Assembly (NCBI GenBank): GCA_025057375.1
Contig: JANWWO010000003.1
Location: 27,325 to 91,324 of the forward strand
Length of the DNA: 64,000 bases
From: Candidatus Absconditabacterales bacterium
Lineage (GTDB): Bacteria > Patescibacteriota > Gracilibacteria > Absconditabacterales > Absconditicoccaceae
Reading direction: 5' to 3'
Below are positions 5,199 through 13,841 of this stretch, piece after piece. The position numbers and the translations under genes were made by a program. Every line of letters begins with the position of its first letter. Within the stretch, counting starts at the first letter, position 1. The notes below the pieces were generated by a model. The model had not been told where the DNA came from and made no database searches. It saw only the letters and a list, made by a program, of their open reading frames with translations.

Positions 5199-5319
5199 CT
5201 ATTGGCAAGCAGAAAATAGAGTATGGATCTTGTTTTTGTTGCAACAATTCCTACACCTAAAATACTCTCATCGTGCTTTTTTTTGCTGTGATGTGTCTTT
5301 ATTTTTTTATCTTTGTCTC

Positions 5320-6795
5320 ATGGCAATCGTCCTCTATCTTTGGTGATTTCTCTTGGTTCCTCTTGTAGTGCAGTATGCTTGATTTGCAGCAGATGGACGA
5401 GAAGTCTATGCTTTGCACGGAGGAGCAGTAGTTGTTGCTGTGCTGTTTTTATTATTGTGACCTTCGCGCCAGTCCTCTGTCATTTCTGATGCTGTTGTCC
5501 AAAATCCTTGTGCTGATGACAAGACTCATCAAACAAAAGCAGAAACAATAAGTGAGAAATTGTGTGCGTCTGATGATGCTGTGGTGCAGGAATCTGTTTC
5601 TATGTCCGCTTATCGTGATAATACGCAAGACGATCATGAGGTTCCATCCGTTATGAAAACACCTTGGTATATTCGTGTTGCTATTGTGTGTGCAACCAAA
5701 CTCTGGTCGTTGGTGAGTTTTGCATGGTTGTGTCTTCTTGGTGTTGCTTTGGTTATTCCTGTGTATCCATGGTATTTTGTGGGTGTTGGTAGTATCTTGC
5801 TTATTGTTTGGCTCTGGTGAGGATTGGTTCGTCATCCTTTCCCCTTTTCTTTTTTTGGGTTTGCTATGCATGTCCGTGAGTGGGTGCAATGGATAGGGCT
5901 GTGTGTGGTCTGTGGTGTTGTATTATTGTTTGGCGATAGCGGAAAATTTTCTGTTCGTTTCTTTGTAGGGGTGTCGAGCGTGTTGGTTCTTTTTTGGGTG
6001 TTTCGTGTATGTATCCCTCGTATAAGGCGTATTAGAGGTAGTAAGTTTCGACTGTTTCGTTTATTGACATGAGTGTGGTTTGTTCTCCTTGCTACTATAC
6101 TTTTCCAAGCATTTTTGTTTGCTCGTGGTCATATTATTCAGTCTCGTCAGCATATGTACGCATTGATGAGAGAATATATGATGTATCAATTTCGTTCTTT
6201 TGCTGAGGATGTGTGAAAAGAATCGCCTCTGTGATCTCTCTTTACTCGTTTTGTTTTTCCTCAGACGTCGCTCTCTGTCAGTCAGGATGGTTCTTTTGGT
6301 GAGGGATGAGTATCATGATCATGATTGCTACTTGCTCTCTCGTGAGATGATGCGGAAAGTGAGATATTTGTTCAGGTCTGACGTCGTAAGCACACGGGAT
6401 CTGTGCCGCAAAAAGAAAAAGATCGTGAACCTGACCCAGAGCAGGACACCGTGACTAGTGTCGAGCCAACCTTTAGAGTTATTGTCAGATTCCTTCTTGC
6501 AACCTATCCAAAAACTACTACAAGATATACATTTGCGAATGTGCCCGCTACTGATCCCGATTATCCCTTTTTTGCAACAGCAAGGCATCTCAATATGATA
6601 GGGACAGATGTCGATCCCAATCGTCTTGTGTTGTGCCAAACATTTTTTGTGATGCAAGGGTTGGCTGAAGGATGGACTGTGTCGTGACAATGAACAATTT
6701 TTGAAAAGTATTGGAACGAAGCTCGTCGTCGTTGAGTTGTAGGATCATGTGAGTGGTGAAAGACGGTGCCTGCCTCTTTATATCGTGGTAGATAA
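5320..6795 (+). CDS. Large membrane protein with a C-terminal SLH-like segment
   Basis: 491 codons with TGA as Gly, ending in TAA. Start chosen at ATG 5320 after a T-rich leader; the frame is open upstream to a TTG at 5158 overlapping mnmA. The N-terminal half has several hydrophobic segments (around residues 1-45, 115-165, 185-225 and 245-270), separated by a charged linker. The C-terminal 130 residues are outside the membrane. A stretch reading FANVPATDPDYPFFATARHL resembles the start of an S-layer homology repeat. Function unknown; it could anchor or organise the cell surface. Confidence 0.65.
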
Positions 6796-6939: not shown

Positions 6940-7206
6940 ATGATTCTGCGTGTGGTTGGTGTCGATGGTGAACTCTATAATTGATCGGTCACCAAAGTAT
7001 TATTGCCTACGGAGAACGGGATTATTGGTATTTTGCCATGACATATTGCTTTGGTGACGACTGTCGTTGCATGATTGGTTTCATATCTTCCTGATACTCT
7101 TTCCACTGATCTTCTTGATTCCTTTGCTGATCATACGCAAACCTTATCGATTTCATGATGATTGGCGATGGTTGATGACGATGTTATTACTGTTATTGCC
7201 CAATAA
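6940..7206 (+). CDS. atpC: ATP synthase F1 epsilon subunit, short form
   Basis: 88 residues with the family signature LLPTENGIIGILPGHIALVT and the C-terminal strand GGLAMVDDDVITVIAQ. This is the beta-sandwich domain only; the usual C-terminal helical hairpin (about 45 residues in E. coli), which regulates ATP hydrolysis, is absent. Five TGA codons fall at conserved or plausible glycines. It is the first gene of the atp cluster, 30 bp before atpG, whereas in most bacteria epsilon is last. Confidence 0.9.
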
Positions 7207-7236
7207 TTCTTTTTTTTTAATCTCCTTTTTGTTTTT

Positions 7237-8133
7237 ATGGCTGATATCAAACAACTCAAGATTAAGATTCATTCTACCAAGAATATCAAAAAGATAACTA
7301 ACGCAATGGAGATTATTTCTACGATTAAGCTTCAAAAAGTCAAAAAACATACAGAAAGCTTGAGAAGATATATGATAGAATTTTTGGGAATGTTATCTGC
7401 TATTGATGGATATACGACATTGTTTCCTGCTTCTTCTCAGACAGATAATGCAAAAGAACTTATTATCTTGGTTTGATCAGAAAAATGATTGTGTGGATCG
7501 TTGAATACGTTATTGTTTAAACAGTTTCATGCACAATACGAATCTAAACAAGGTGCAGTTGTGCTCTTTACGATTGGCAAAAAAGCAAAAGAGTTTGCCT
7601 TCAAACGTGGCTATGACGTTATTGGTGATTGTTCTCTTCGTGATGTGTTTGAGTCTGATGATTTGCGTCCGTTGTATGATGTGCTTGGTGATGCATACGA
7701 ACATAAACGTTACGCCCGTATTACTGTCTATTACAATTACTTTAAAAACACGATGAAACAAATTCCTGTTGGTTTGGATTTGATGCCATTGTCTATGGAG
7801 ACCTGTGATCGTTTTATGAGAGAACTTGATATTGTTCTTCCTTCCAAGGTTTCTACGCGTACCTATAATGCAACGCACATAGAATTGGAGCCAGATAGAG
7901 AGACAATTGTTAAGAAAGCCTATGAAATCATGATGCGTATTATTGTCTATGGTGCCGTCTTACACAATAAAACGGGTGAATTTGCTGCGCGTATGCTTGC
8001 GATGAAATGAGCAAAAGATAATGCAACATCGATTATTTCTTGATTGACATTGGCATACAATAAGGCTCGTCAAGATGCAATTACAAAAGAAGTGTTGGAA
8101 ATTGTGAGTGCAAAAGCTGTCATTGAAGATTAG
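7237..8133 (+). CDS. atpG: ATP synthase F1 gamma subunit
   Basis: 298 residues. This is the central rotor stalk of F1, which couples c-ring rotation to catalysis in alpha3beta3. The N-terminal helix KIHSTKNIKKITNAMEIIS and C-terminal helix GEFAARMLAMKGAKDNA are typical of gamma. The conserved GSEKGLCGSLN has both of its first two glycines written TGA. It starts at ATG after a T-rich leader (TTTTTGTTTTT) and ends in TAG. Confidence 0.95.
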
Positions 8134-8210
8134 TCAGAGATATGATGTGAGAAATGTTCTTCTTTGATGTTTTAGTGTTGTATGTTTTATCTTCTGTTTT
8201 GTTATCTGAT

Positions 8211-9230
8211 ATGACGCTGAGATTATTTTTTGTTTGTCTGCTGCTGTGATTGTATAGTTTGTGAGCCCCCCCTCTCTTTGCAGTTGATATTATTGTCTGA
8301 TCCTGAGTAAAAAATGATCCTTATTATCAAATGAATTCGGCAAATCTCAATACGATGAATTCCTATATTATTCCCGTTGAAAATGATATTGATCCACAAA
8401 ATTATAAAGAATTGAAATATTCTATCTCGTTTGAGGATTGATCTCTTACTTTTCAAAAAGATACAAGTCCTTGATACAAAATAATTCATATTATGTCGTC
8501 GTATGTCGGATACATCTGTTTGTGGTTCATTTTTCTTTTCTTGTGGTATTGGGGTGTTAAAAAAAAAGATTCTGATTTTTGACAAGTTCTTCGTTTGATC
8601 TTTGAGTGAATATGGTGATTTTTTGAAGATATTCTTGGTCATCAGAGGAGTCATTGGATCAAAGTATATGTAGTTTCTTTGTTTTTCATTATTCTTCTTT
8701 CCAACCTTTTTGGTCTGTTTGGAGATGTTATTAGATTTGTTTTCCCTCAATATCTTAGACGGGTGACTGCCCCAACGAGTGAGTTCGAGTCAACGATAGC
8801 AATGGCGTTAATTTCTATACTGATCACTTTTTATGTTCAGATGAAAGCTGTATGATGACCTTTGTCTTTGCTTCATGAGTATGTGCCAGTGACAGGAAAG
8901 TGACTTTTTCAATGATCATGAATACTAACCAAAGCATGAGATATCCTTATCAGTTTATTCATTGGGTTTCTTGATATCGTTGGTGTTGTTGCAAAGGTTG
9001 TATCATTATCAATTAGATTATTTGGGAACATGTCTTCATGAAGTATTTTATTGAATGTTATTTTTATTGGATTTGGTCTTGTGACTGTTGGATTATTATG
9101 ATTTAATATGCCTTTCTGAGTTCCTATTATCATTTATGTTCAATCAATCCTTGTTTCTGTAGTCCAAGCTTTTGTGTTTTCTTTATTGATCGGTATTGGT
9201 TTAGTTATGGCTGATTGAACAAGTGAATAA
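8211..9230 (+). CDS. atpB: ATP synthase Fo subunit a
   Basis: 339 residues. The membrane stator subunit that forms the ion half-channels facing the c-ring. The key arginine lies in VVSLSIRLFGNMSSG near residue 270. The N-terminus is long: MTLRLFFVCLLLGLYS looks like a signal peptide, followed by about 90 extra residues before the usual first helix, so the topology may be N-out after cleavage. Many glycines are TGA. It ends in TAA and is followed by atpE. Confidence 0.93.
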
Positions 9231-9327
9231 GTACGTATTGAACAAATGAAAGTGTAGTTTGTAGTCTTATCATATTTATTATTATTTTATTATACTATTA
9301 TTATTTTTTATTTTTTTTTGTATACTA

Positions 9328-9780
9328 ATGGATCTTAATTTTGTATGAGTTGCTCTTGCGATTGGTGTTACTGGTTTATGAGTGACAATATGTCAATGAC
9401 TTGTTGCGAGAGAAGCTATTGAGGCTCAATGAAAAAATCCAGATCTTGCTGGAACACTTAGGACATTGACTATCTTGTGATTGGCTCTTGTAGAATCTGC
9501 TGCGATTTATGGTTTGGTTGTTGCAATTCTTATCCTTCAAAAAGTTGGTGTTGATTGATTTGCGGCGACTCAGTGACTTGCTGCGTGACTTGCGATTGCA
9601 CTTCCTTGATTTGCTGCATGACTTGGTCAGGGCATGATTGTTATCAATGCAATCAAAGCTGTATTGAGAAATCCTGCTGATACTGCAAATATTAGAACGA
9701 ATATGATTATTTTTATTGCACTTGTAGAATCTGCTGCGATTTATGGATTGGTGACAGCTATTTTGATCCTTAATAAATAA
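9328..9780 (+). CDS. atpE: ATP synthase Fo subunit c, fused double hairpin
   Basis: 150 residues, about twice the usual c subunit, made of two helical hairpins in tandem (four membrane helices). Each half has a Gln in helix 1 (Q23, Q101), a loop containing NP (KNPD, RNPA), and in helix 2 the motif LVESAAIYGLV with the ion-binding Glu (E56, E134), Ser and Tyr. The Gln-to-Glu spacing is 33 residues in both halves, as in sodium-binding c subunits such as that of Ilyobacter tartaricus. By my count ten of 18 glycines are TGA. A 26-bp stretch (9487-9512 and 9721-9746) is identical in the two halves. Confidence 0.93.
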
Positions 9781-9880
9781 GTAAAAAAAACATACTGATC
9801 GTGATAGTGTTGTTGTTTGTGAATTTTAAACATTATTCTTGTCAGTGTTTGTTTTTTCTTTTATTTTTGTCTTCTTTTTG

Positions 9881-10387
9881 ATGATTATTGATTTGGGTCC
9901 TTTGACTATTAAGCTTGATGTTTTGATTATTCAATTTATCAATATTGGGATTTTATTGTATCTGTTCAATAAACTTTTTGGTGAGACGTTGATAGCGGAA
10001 ATTGCTGAAAGAAGAGCAATGACTCGTAAATTGGAACAAGCTGAAAAAGAATATGCTGCGTTGCTTGCTGAAGCAAATGCCCAAAAAGATGCAATTATCA
10101 AAGAGGCATTGGAGCACAAAAAATCTATTATAGAAGAAGCATCGCGTTTGGCAAAAAATGAGAGAGCTGCGATTGTAGAAAAAGCAAAGCAAGAAGCTGA
10201 TCTTATTGTTCTCAAAGCACAACGTGATGCTGAGGCTCAAAAAAAAGATATCGAACAGAAATTTGAACAATGAGTTAAATCTACGGCAGTTGCTATGCTC
10301 AAAAAACTTTTTGCATCCAATAAACAAGTGTCTGATATGTATATTGCGTGACTAGTGGACGAATTTACTCACTCATACAAAGCATAA
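9881..10387 (+). CDS. atpF: ATP synthase Fo subunit b
   Basis: 168 residues. This is the peripheral stalk subunit linking Fo subunit a to F1. It has one N-terminal membrane helix (LIIQFINIGILLYLFNKLF), then a long charged coiled coil rich in Ala, Glu and Lys, typical of b. ATG at 9881 follows a T-rich tract; a TTG at 9839 in the same frame would add 14 hydrophobic residues. The stop TAA overlaps the atpH start by one base (TAATG), implying translational coupling. Confidence 0.9.
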
Positions 10388-10794
10388 TGAGACTTTCTCT
10401 TCTTGTAAACCATTGTATAGCATCACAGGATCGCTCCATTATTGAGGTGATTTATACTCTTTTGGTTTTGATGAAAAAATATGGTAAAGCATTAGCACAG
10501 CCTGTGTTTCAAACTCAATTGACTGCATTGTTTCCTGAAGCCATGAAATTGTATGTTTTGGCTTGAGCGCATCGTTTTGATGTGAAACAGTGCCAGCATC
10601 TTCTTGCATCTGTTTCTGCAGGTTTGTCATATAATCATCTTGAGATTTCTCATTCATCGCCTGTCTCTTTTCAGTTGCTCGTTGGTGATAGTGCTGAATA
10701 TGTGGATCGTTCTGATATTGGTCTTTGTGTTCAATGAAAGGGAAAGATCTATAAAAGAACGCTCAATGGGGATCTCGCAAAATTGAGTCAGTAA
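10387..10794 (+). CDS. atpH: ATP synthase F1 delta subunit, divergent
   Basis: 135 residues. Identified mainly by position between b and alpha and by its C-terminal segment IGLCVQGKGKIYKRTLNGDL, which matches the delta signature (a glycine-turn strand followed by D-x-S/T-hairpin and short helix) that binds subunit b. The N-terminal six-helix domain is shortened compared with the usual 175-180 residues. The start overlaps the atpF stop. Two glycines are TGA. Confidence 0.8.
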
Positions 10795-10824
10795 ATGTTT
10801 TTTACTTTTATTTATTCTTACCTT

Positions 10825-12324
10825 ATGTCTTCTGTTGATACTATTCTCAAAAAAATTGAAGAACAAATACAAGCAACATCCCTTGATGAATCGTTTTCTG
10901 AAAAAGGAATAATTTTGGAAATAAAAGATGGTGTGGCGACTGTATCATGACTTGCGAAAGCTAAATACTCAGAGATTGTTGTTTTTGAATCTGGTGTCAA
11001 ATGACTCGTGTTGGATTTGATGCAAGAGTATGTTGGTGTTTTGGTTCTTGGTGAGTATATGTGACTGACTCAAGGACAAACAGTCAAAACAACAGGCAAA
11101 CTTTTTTCGGTCTGAGTAGGAAATCAGTATATTGGTCGTGTGCTCAATGCGTTGGGAGATCCGATTGATCAGTGACCATCATTGACCCCGACTACATATT
11201 TGCCTGTCGAAAAAGTTGCTCCTGGTGTGATTACCAGACAATCTGTTGATCAACCACTCCAAACCTGAATAAAAGCGATTGATGCGATGATTCCTATCGG
11301 AAGAGGACAGAGAGAGCTGATTATTGGTGATAGACAAACAGGAAAGACAACTGTTGCTATTGATACGATTATTGCTCAAAAAGGTAGTGGTGTCGTATGT
11401 ATCTATGTTGCTATTGGTCAAAAAGAATCCAAAGTCGCTCGTATCGTTGAATCATTGAGACACAAAGGAGCAATGGACTATACGATCGTTATTAATGCTC
11501 CGATCAATACCCCTGCGGTAATGCAATATATTGCTCCTTATGTAGGTGCAACCTTTGGAGAATTTATTATGTCTCAAGGAAAAGATGCATTGATTATCTA
11601 TGATGATTTGACTAAACACGCATCTGCATATAGGGAAATGTCGCTCCTTCTTAGAAGACCTCCCGGACGTGAAGCATATCCTGGTGACATTTTTTATCTT
11701 CACTCAAGATTACTAGAAAGAGCATGTAGATTGAATAAAGATTATGGTGGTGGTTCGTTGACTGCTTTGCCTATCATTGAAACGCAAGCATGAGATGTGT
11801 CTGCCTATATCCCAACTAATGTGATTTCTATCACGGATGGACAAATTTATCTCGAATCAAACCTTTTCAACGCCGGAATTAAACCTGCGATTAACGTTTG
11901 ATTGTCAGTATCTCGTGTATGATGAGCAGCTCAAACCAGTATTATGAAAAAAGTCTCAGGAAAACTCAAATTGGAATTGGCTGCCTATAGAGAACTTGAA
12001 ACATTTGCAAAATTTGGGTCTGATCTTGATAAAAGTACCCAAGCAAAGCTTGCAAGATGAGAACGTATGGTCGAGATGCTCAAACAAGCCGAAAATAGTC
12101 CACTCTCATTTCACAAACAAGTTGTATTGATTTATGCAGGAATCAATGGATATTTGGATACTATTCCTGTGTCGTCTATTCGTTCTTTCGAACAAAAGCT
12201 GTATGACAAGCTTGATACAACTTTCTCTGATCTATCAGATAAGATTCTTTCAGAGAAAAAATTAACTGATGAAATTGAAGAGCGTATCAAAGCTTTGTGT
12301 GCGGAAGTAAGAGATGAGTTTTAG
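10825..12324 (+). CDS. atpA: ATP synthase F1 alpha subunit
   Basis: 499 residues. The non-catalytic nucleotide-binding subunit of F1. The Walker [10 protein letters not shown] and the family signature PAINVGLSVSRVGGAAQT near residue 365 are clear, with several glycines in the latter encoded by TGA. Start ATG after a pyrimidine-rich leader, stop TAG. It follows atpH by 30 bp. The middle of the gene uses GGN glycine codons almost only, whereas both ends use TGA often. Confidence 0.96.
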
Positions 12325-12446
12325 GTATAAAAGATCATTTTTGCTATACTGTATCTAACGTTCTCTGATACTGACTTTTGTGAGGATCCAGCTATGGTAT
12401 GCAAAAAGTCCGCGAAGCGGTTGTTTTATTTTAACTCTATCATTCT
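12325..12446 (+). other. atpA-atpD spacer with a GC-rich hairpin
   Basis: This 122-bp spacer is long for the cluster. It has a TATACT box at 12345-12350 without a good -35, then CCGC-GAA-GCGG (12410-12420) followed by TTGTTTTATTTT. It looks like an attenuator or partial terminator, which could set alpha-to-beta stoichiometry or release a short RNA. No peptide is supported. Confidence 0.45.

Positions 12447-13841
<1,395 letters not shown>

Follow-up and report, generated by a model that had tools for sequence, protein, structure and literature searches.

A fused double c subunit with two Na+-type ion sites as the probable sole rotor subunit of an even-numbered F-type ring in a Candidatus Absconditabacterales bacterium

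A stretch of 64,000 nucleotides from a Candidatus Absconditabacterales bacterium (assembly GCA_025057375.1, contig JANWWO010000003.1, positions 27,325 to 91,324 of the forward strand; hereafter the window) contains at 9328–9780 a gene encoding a c subunit of an F-type ATP synthase in which two hairpins are fused. The evidence presented here makes it quite probable that this gene provides the sole rotor subunit of a homomeric, even-numbered F-type ring of Na+ type, likely composed of six c2 chains with 12 sites, in an enzyme that probably acts as an ATP-driven Na+ exporter.

Read under code 25, the open reading frame (ORF) comprises 150 codons, with TGA decoded as Gly at 10 in-frame sites. A Pfam search of the protein detected two PF00137 (ATP-synt_C) domains within this single frame (E = 1.4e-31), bearing out the claim of an earlier, sequence-only reading that two c hairpins are fused in a 150-residue protein. 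The ion-binding carboxylates, Glu56 and Glu134, lie in helix 2 of each hairpin. AlphaFold modelled the protein with a predicted local distance difference test score (pLDDT) of 96.2 and a predicted template modelling score (pTM) of 0.86, and Foldseek returned c1 of Acetobacterium woodii (4bem_J) as the top fold in the PDB, with a template modelling (TM) score of 0.89. No PF00137 match was found elsewhere in the genome, which is 97% complete, and the two hairpins of this gene are thus the only ones detected. Features of the gene are as follows.

9328–9780 (+), fused double c gene (atpE-like), 150 amino acids, hairpin order A-B (code-25 reading, Pfam, AlphaFold, Foldseek)
9340–9537 (+), hairpin A, residues 5–70, type GKNP..LTILG.ALVES (hairpin alignment, tree)
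9394–9396 (+), Gln23 of hairpin A, at the position of Gln32 of Ilyobacter tartaricus (sequence; ligand roles from PMC3692424 and PMC2359735)
9487–9512 (+), copy 1 of a 26-bp identical string, CTTGTAGAATCTGCTGCGATTTATGG (sequence)
9493–9510 (+), Glu56-Ser57-Ala-Ala-Ile-Tyr61, ion carboxylate of hairpin A and its partners (sequence)
9574–9771 (+), hairpin B, residues 83–148, type LRNP..MIIFIALVES (hairpin alignment, tree)
9628–9630 (+), Gln101 of hairpin B (sequence)
9721–9746 (+), copy 2 of the 26-bp string CTTGTAGAATCTGCTGCGATTTATGG (sequence)
9727–9744 (+), Glu134-Ser135-Ala-Ala-Ile-Tyr139, ion carboxylate of hairpin B and its partners (sequence)

Residues Q23/E56/S57/Y61 and Q101/E134/S135/Y139 correspond to I. 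tartaricus Gln32, Glu65, Ser66 and Tyr70, whose numbering is used below. In both halves Gln and Glu are 33 residues apart, with Ser at E+1 and Tyr at E+5, so that each half holds a complete I. tartaricus-type ligand set, as had been read from the sequence; retention of the carboxylate in both halves, unlike A. woodii c1 or V-type K subunits, was likewise borne out. The term Na+-type denotes here this ligand set, which alone cannot separate Na+ from H+ coupling. In Fusobacterium nucleatum the Na+ ligands are Glu32 and Glu65, Ser66 and the Val63 carbonyl of the adjacent subunit, and a water held by Thr67, position 32 being Gln in the I. tartaricus site (PMC3692424). Relatives were gathered from a survey of the class and a scan of GTDB genomes. 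Among 211 fused hairpins from 49 fused genes, Glu65 and Tyr70 were present in all (211/211 each), position 32 was Glu in 153, Gln in 43 and another residue in 15 (Glu/Gln 196, 93%), and position 66 was Ser in 167, Thr in 12, Val in 29 and Ala in 3 (Ser/Thr 179, 85%). Position 32 is Gln in both halves of the window protein. Most relatives have Glu there, which gives them two carboxylates per site as in F. nucleatum, and the nearest c relative (L031, on the same contig as L075; 74% identical) has Glu in both halves.

The sequence-only reading had proposed a survey of related code-25 genomes for the fusion, and this produced 29 distinct fused doubles; they come from separate assemblies, among them the complete chromosome CP006913.1. 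It also produced extensions to 4, 6, 10 and 12 hairpins, which had escaped that reading. V/A-type double K subunits of other class members (L007, L014, L018 and others) were excluded for their low score with the F-type hairpin profile, and a V-type relation of the fused c was rejected on that ground. In four of the doubles (L017, L040, L044 and L045) the order is permuted to B-A, and the tree places their second hairpin with A; AB and BA chains yield an identical ring if hairpins alternate. In code-25 Gracilibacteria, single-frame c genes were found with 4 hairpins (L090, L094, and L036, in which the contig end cuts the gene), 6 (L096, L098, L099, L101, L103, L108), at least 8 (L100, gene cut), 10 (L097) and 12. 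The six genes with 12 hairpins encode proteins of about 900 amino acids with 24 transmembrane helices and alternating A and B hairpins, and are located as follows.

L105, 7986–10688, 12-hairpin ORF
L107, 6329–9019, 12-hairpin ORF
L109, 1074–3764, 12-hairpin ORF
L111, 4211–6910, 12-hairpin ORF
L114, 7379–10066, 12-hairpin ORF
L080, 4174–6864, 12-hairpin ORF

The hairpin count was even in all of these genes that are complete, and the most similar repeat pairs shared parity. No two hairpins of L080 exceed 71% nucleotide identity, and its count of 12 is therefore not an assembly ambiguity. The L105 gene includes repeats that are 100% identical. Within F-type operons, these c genes are flanked by a and b, except for a second, distinct fused c located upstream of a in four genomes (L080:4156–6864, 12 hairpins; L090:4452–5345, 4; L098:7989–9341 and L101:7989–9341, 6), which possibly encodes a second rotor isoform or a partner. 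A three-hairpin c was also observed in a bacterial metagenome-assembled genome (L144:943–1997), where it adjoins a single-hairpin c and its middle hairpin lacks the carboxylate (TQTPNVF).

Since the double c is the only c gene found and a homomeric c2 ring cannot have an odd number of hairpins, the ring should be even. Twelve sites are favoured because lengths of 2, 4, 6 and 12 all divide 12 and six genes have exactly 12 hairpins, and the ring would most likely consist of six chains with 12 sites, transporting 4 ions per ATP. AlphaFold modelled the 12-hairpin protein L114 with a pLDDT of 88.3 and a pTM of 0.91; as expected, confident PDB matches of this model in Foldseek were two-hairpin chains only. 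Of the 11 genomes for which hairpins were totalled, eight had 12; the remaining three had 10, 8 (as 4+4, in the complete chromosome CP042461.1) and 14 (as 12+2). The ion/ATP ratio is set by ring size, which a gene does not normally reveal; in this case, fusion bars homomeric rings with an odd number of hairpins, and the existence of 12-hairpin relatives makes the number of rotor units almost directly legible in the gene. All Na+ F-type rings known by 2013 were 11-mers, and the hypothesis was raised that they are always so (PMC3692424). An even fused rotor speaks against this hypothesis, and a 12-site ring, if true, would match the threefold F1 exactly, at 4 ions per ATP, and break the 11-hairpin pattern.

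Several points weigh against a Na+-type ring of 12 sites. The equivalent of Thr67 is replaced by Ala58 and Ala136 in the window protein; Thr67 is an accessory feature, the loss of which weakens Na+ binding and does not exclude it. The missing 3% of the genome could hide a second c gene. L097, with 10 hairpins, is the sole length that does not divide 12, and together with the 4+4 and 12+2 genomes it means that 12 may not be universal among relatives. In favour of the proposed ring, covariation was seen along the chain, with statistics that ignore the relatedness of sequences: after a Val66 hairpin, position 32 of the next hairpin was never Glu (9/9 vs. 10/75, p = 2.5e-7), and a last hairpin with Val66 occurred with a first hairpin with Gln32 in 11 of 12 distinct patterns. 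This fits a site shared by successive hairpins, the last hairpin meeting the first. A ring with a different even number of hairpins, 10 or 14, with the 12-hairpin genes reflecting their own lineage only, is a lesser possibility, to which L097 and the fact that few residue changes can alter ring size (PMC3692424) lend some weight; however, rings of 10 or 14 cannot be tiled by 4-, 6- and 12-hairpin genes alone, and six genes end at exactly 12. As a separate observation, Arg32 is present in some A hairpins beside a neighbour with Val66 (hairpins 7 and 11 of L114; also L090, L094, L096, L103 and L107), which might prevent ion binding at these sites.

The form of subunit a that accompanies the fused c carries the motif RLFGN.xSGxxLL. 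In the window's family, c genes with a single hairpin lack Gln/Glu32 and Ser66 and pair with a different subunit a. In the beta tree, the sister of the window is G009/L171 (support 98), with identical gene order and a single H+-type c. Between the window operon (6940–13841) and that of L171 (7827–14089), identities were 83% for beta, 79% for alpha and 62% for gamma, vs. 30% for a and 26% for c, while the corresponding values between the window and L075 were 77, 72 and 48%, vs. 57% for a and 69% for c. Because L171 matches in F1 and L075 in a and c, it follows that F1 was retained through an exchange of a and c, which could have run in either direction. Set against the window operon, that of L171 is a mosaic, with the same F1 lineage and gene order but the H+-type set in place of a and c. 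Both Fo sets were found in one operon with a single F1 in L083:7022–10922, L085:500–4482 and L088:856–4886, in the order a-c2-b-a-c1-b-(delta)-alpha-gamma-beta, c2 being fused and Na+-type and c1 single and H+-type. These dual-Fo operons are plausible intermediates of the exchange, and together with the swap they are natural cases for studying how rotary enzymes change ion. It is moderately probable that SR1/Absconditabacteria and code-25 Gracilibacteria hold a separate class of Na+-type rotor, in which an obligate A-B pair fused as 2, 4, 6 or 12 hairpins forms a 12-site ring and a and c are exchangeable for an H+ module over a constant F1; the window gene would represent the elementary pair of this class.

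A single-hairpin c at the same locus in a relative had been named by the sequence-only reading as a sign of an assembly artefact. Such a gene literally exists, in G009/L171, the nearest F1 relative, but as part of an H+-type a/c set: its c is just 26% identical to that of the window and is paired with a different a. That a single-hairpin c was wrongly joined or doubled, by assembly or frame error, can be practically discounted, given the 29 doubles from independent assemblies and the complete chromosomes CP006913.1, with a double, and CP042461.1, with two 4-hairpin genes; a collapsed or duplicated read tract is excluded because the halves differ, with 48% amino acid identity. The same divergence (59% at the nucleotide level) bears on the age of the duplication. 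In a tree of 118 hairpins, based on 68 columns and thus leaving fine branching aside, the fused A hairpins fell on one side of a single branch with a support of 85 in the Shimodaira–Hasegawa-like approximate likelihood ratio test (SH-aLRT). A and B are two old hairpin types common to SR1/Absconditabacteria and code-25 Gracilibacteria, and the grouping of A hairpins across the family and beyond, combined with the low identity between halves, indicates that the duplication is old. Recent duplication of the whole gene, as read from the 26-bp identity, is ruled out by the tree and the 48% identity. The identity itself is real and exceeds what codon usage would produce, a run of at least 26 bp arising in 0.1% of trials simulating independent synonymous codons (P about 0.001). 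Longest runs among about 29 fused doubles ranged from 6 to 30 bp, the same motif giving runs of 28 and 30 bp in two others, which makes the window's run unusual and not unique; gene conversion limited to a tract of about 26 bp is at most possible. A recent in-gene duplication, or ongoing conversion homogenising both halves, is very unlikely: the 26-bp run is beyond chance, but the halves share only 59% of nucleotides, A and B form separate groups and comparable runs were found in just two other doubles.

The gene belongs to an F-type operon with the order epsilon-gamma-a-c2-b-delta-alpha-beta, whose other members are listed below.

6940–7206 (+), epsilon, 88 amino acids, beta-sandwich domain only (PF02823, E = 6e-15)
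7237–8133 (+), gamma (PF00231, E = 1e-65)
8142–9230 (+), subunit a, fused-type form, essential Arg within RLFGNMSSGSILL (PF00119, E = 3e-27)
9839–10387 (+), subunit b (PF00430, E = 1e-5, 25.6 bits, slightly below the cut-off of 28)
10348–10794 (+), probable delta, no Pfam match (position and similarity to the corresponding gene of relatives)
10825–12324 (+), alpha (PF00006, E = 1e-82)
12447–13841 (+), beta (PF00006, E = 3e-76)

Each chain would contribute two neighbouring hairpins, A and B, to the ring in strict alternation, and each Na+-type site would be formed across two adjacent hairpins, one giving Gln32 and Glu65 and the other Ser66 and a backbone carbonyl, with Tyr70 latching the Glu. 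A site passing subunit a, with its conserved Arg, would exchange its ion and the ring would advance by one hairpin, the enzyme mainly hydrolysing ATP and exporting Na+. Family searches of the genome revealed no H-PPase, Rnf/Nqr, OAD beta or Mrp/complex-I antiporter, and one Na/H exchanger. Pfam detected no C-terminal helical domain in the 88-residue epsilon; in other bacteria this domain is the part inhibiting hydrolysis. Since no primary ion pump of the searched families was found and epsilon lacks this domain, ATP-driven Na+ export is probable, and we infer Na+ as the physiological ion and net ATP hydrolysis. This bears on the debated energetics of these epibiotic, apparently non-respiring bacteria. 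Alternatively, the double c could be functionally H+-coupled, the ligand set being inherited and the Glu sites carrying protons at low external Na+. Protons, too, can bind at sites with a complete Na+ ligand set, and for the ring of Methanosarcina acetivorans transport of both ions is discussed (PMC3692424); absence of Thr67 points the same way. Papers on Vampirococcus and a BD1-5 gracilibacterium assumed a proton-driven enzyme, with no obvious source of proton-motive force (PMC8080830, PMC6851277), and for the c subunit of Vampirococcus, of the same group, Na+ was rejected (PMC8080830). H+ coupling is nevertheless rather unlikely, because Glu/Gln32 and Ser/Thr66 are kept in most of the 211 fused hairpins whereas the family's single-hairpin c lacks both, and because dual-Fo operons retain one c of each type, which is sensible if the ions differ. 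Combined, these data suggest that both Na+- and H+-type enzymes exist in the Vampirococcus/Absconditabacteria group. A Lys seven residues before the Arg of subunit a was considered as a Na+ marker and dropped, as E. coli subunit a also has it and the residue is thus non-discriminating.

Among known systems, the best sequence and fold match was c1 of A. woodii and Clostridium aceticum (4bem chain J), also F-type, with two hairpins per chain and Na+-type ligands. However, hairpin 2 of this c1 lacks the carboxylate and a single-hairpin c accompanies it (PMC7911925), whereas the window gene keeps both sites and is the only c found. The c11 rings of I. tartaricus and F. nucleatum share the ligands Gln/Glu32, Glu65, Ser66 and Tyr70, the window protein being of the Gln type, but consist of single hairpins, 11 per ring, and the window protein has Ala for Thr67. 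The A-type K subunits of Methanopyrus kandleri (13 hairpins) and Methanothermobacter (double) also have tandem hairpins with Na+ ligands in each (PMC2359735). Those are archaeal and A-type, unlike the bacterial F-type proteins described here, with A/B alternation, an even count and mostly 12 hairpins in the longest genes; a whole ring per chain, as in M. kandleri, applies to the relatives with 12 and not to the two-hairpin window gene. An engineered fused c10 of Bacillus PS3 demonstrated that an entire F-type ring in one chain works (PMC8809890), but it is a laboratory construct, whereas the 12-hairpin relatives occur in nature. The double-hairpin fold is also that of Enterococcus hirae NtpK and eukaryotic V-type proteolipids (TM score about 0.8), but these are V-type, with one carboxylate per double hairpin. 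No report of a multi-hairpin F-type c with all sites kept, of a natural single-chain F-type rotor, or of any multi-hairpin F-type c from the bacteria considered here, was found in the open-licence literature, which is weak evidence of absence.

Beyond the gene itself, no PF00137 match was present in 18 of 49 members of family f1, to which the window's genome belongs, several of them at least 94% complete, pointing to loss of the ATP synthase or to a divergent c. Directly upstream of the window operon, at 5203–6795, there is an ORF of about 530 amino acids that has no Pfam match and is apparently membrane-rich.
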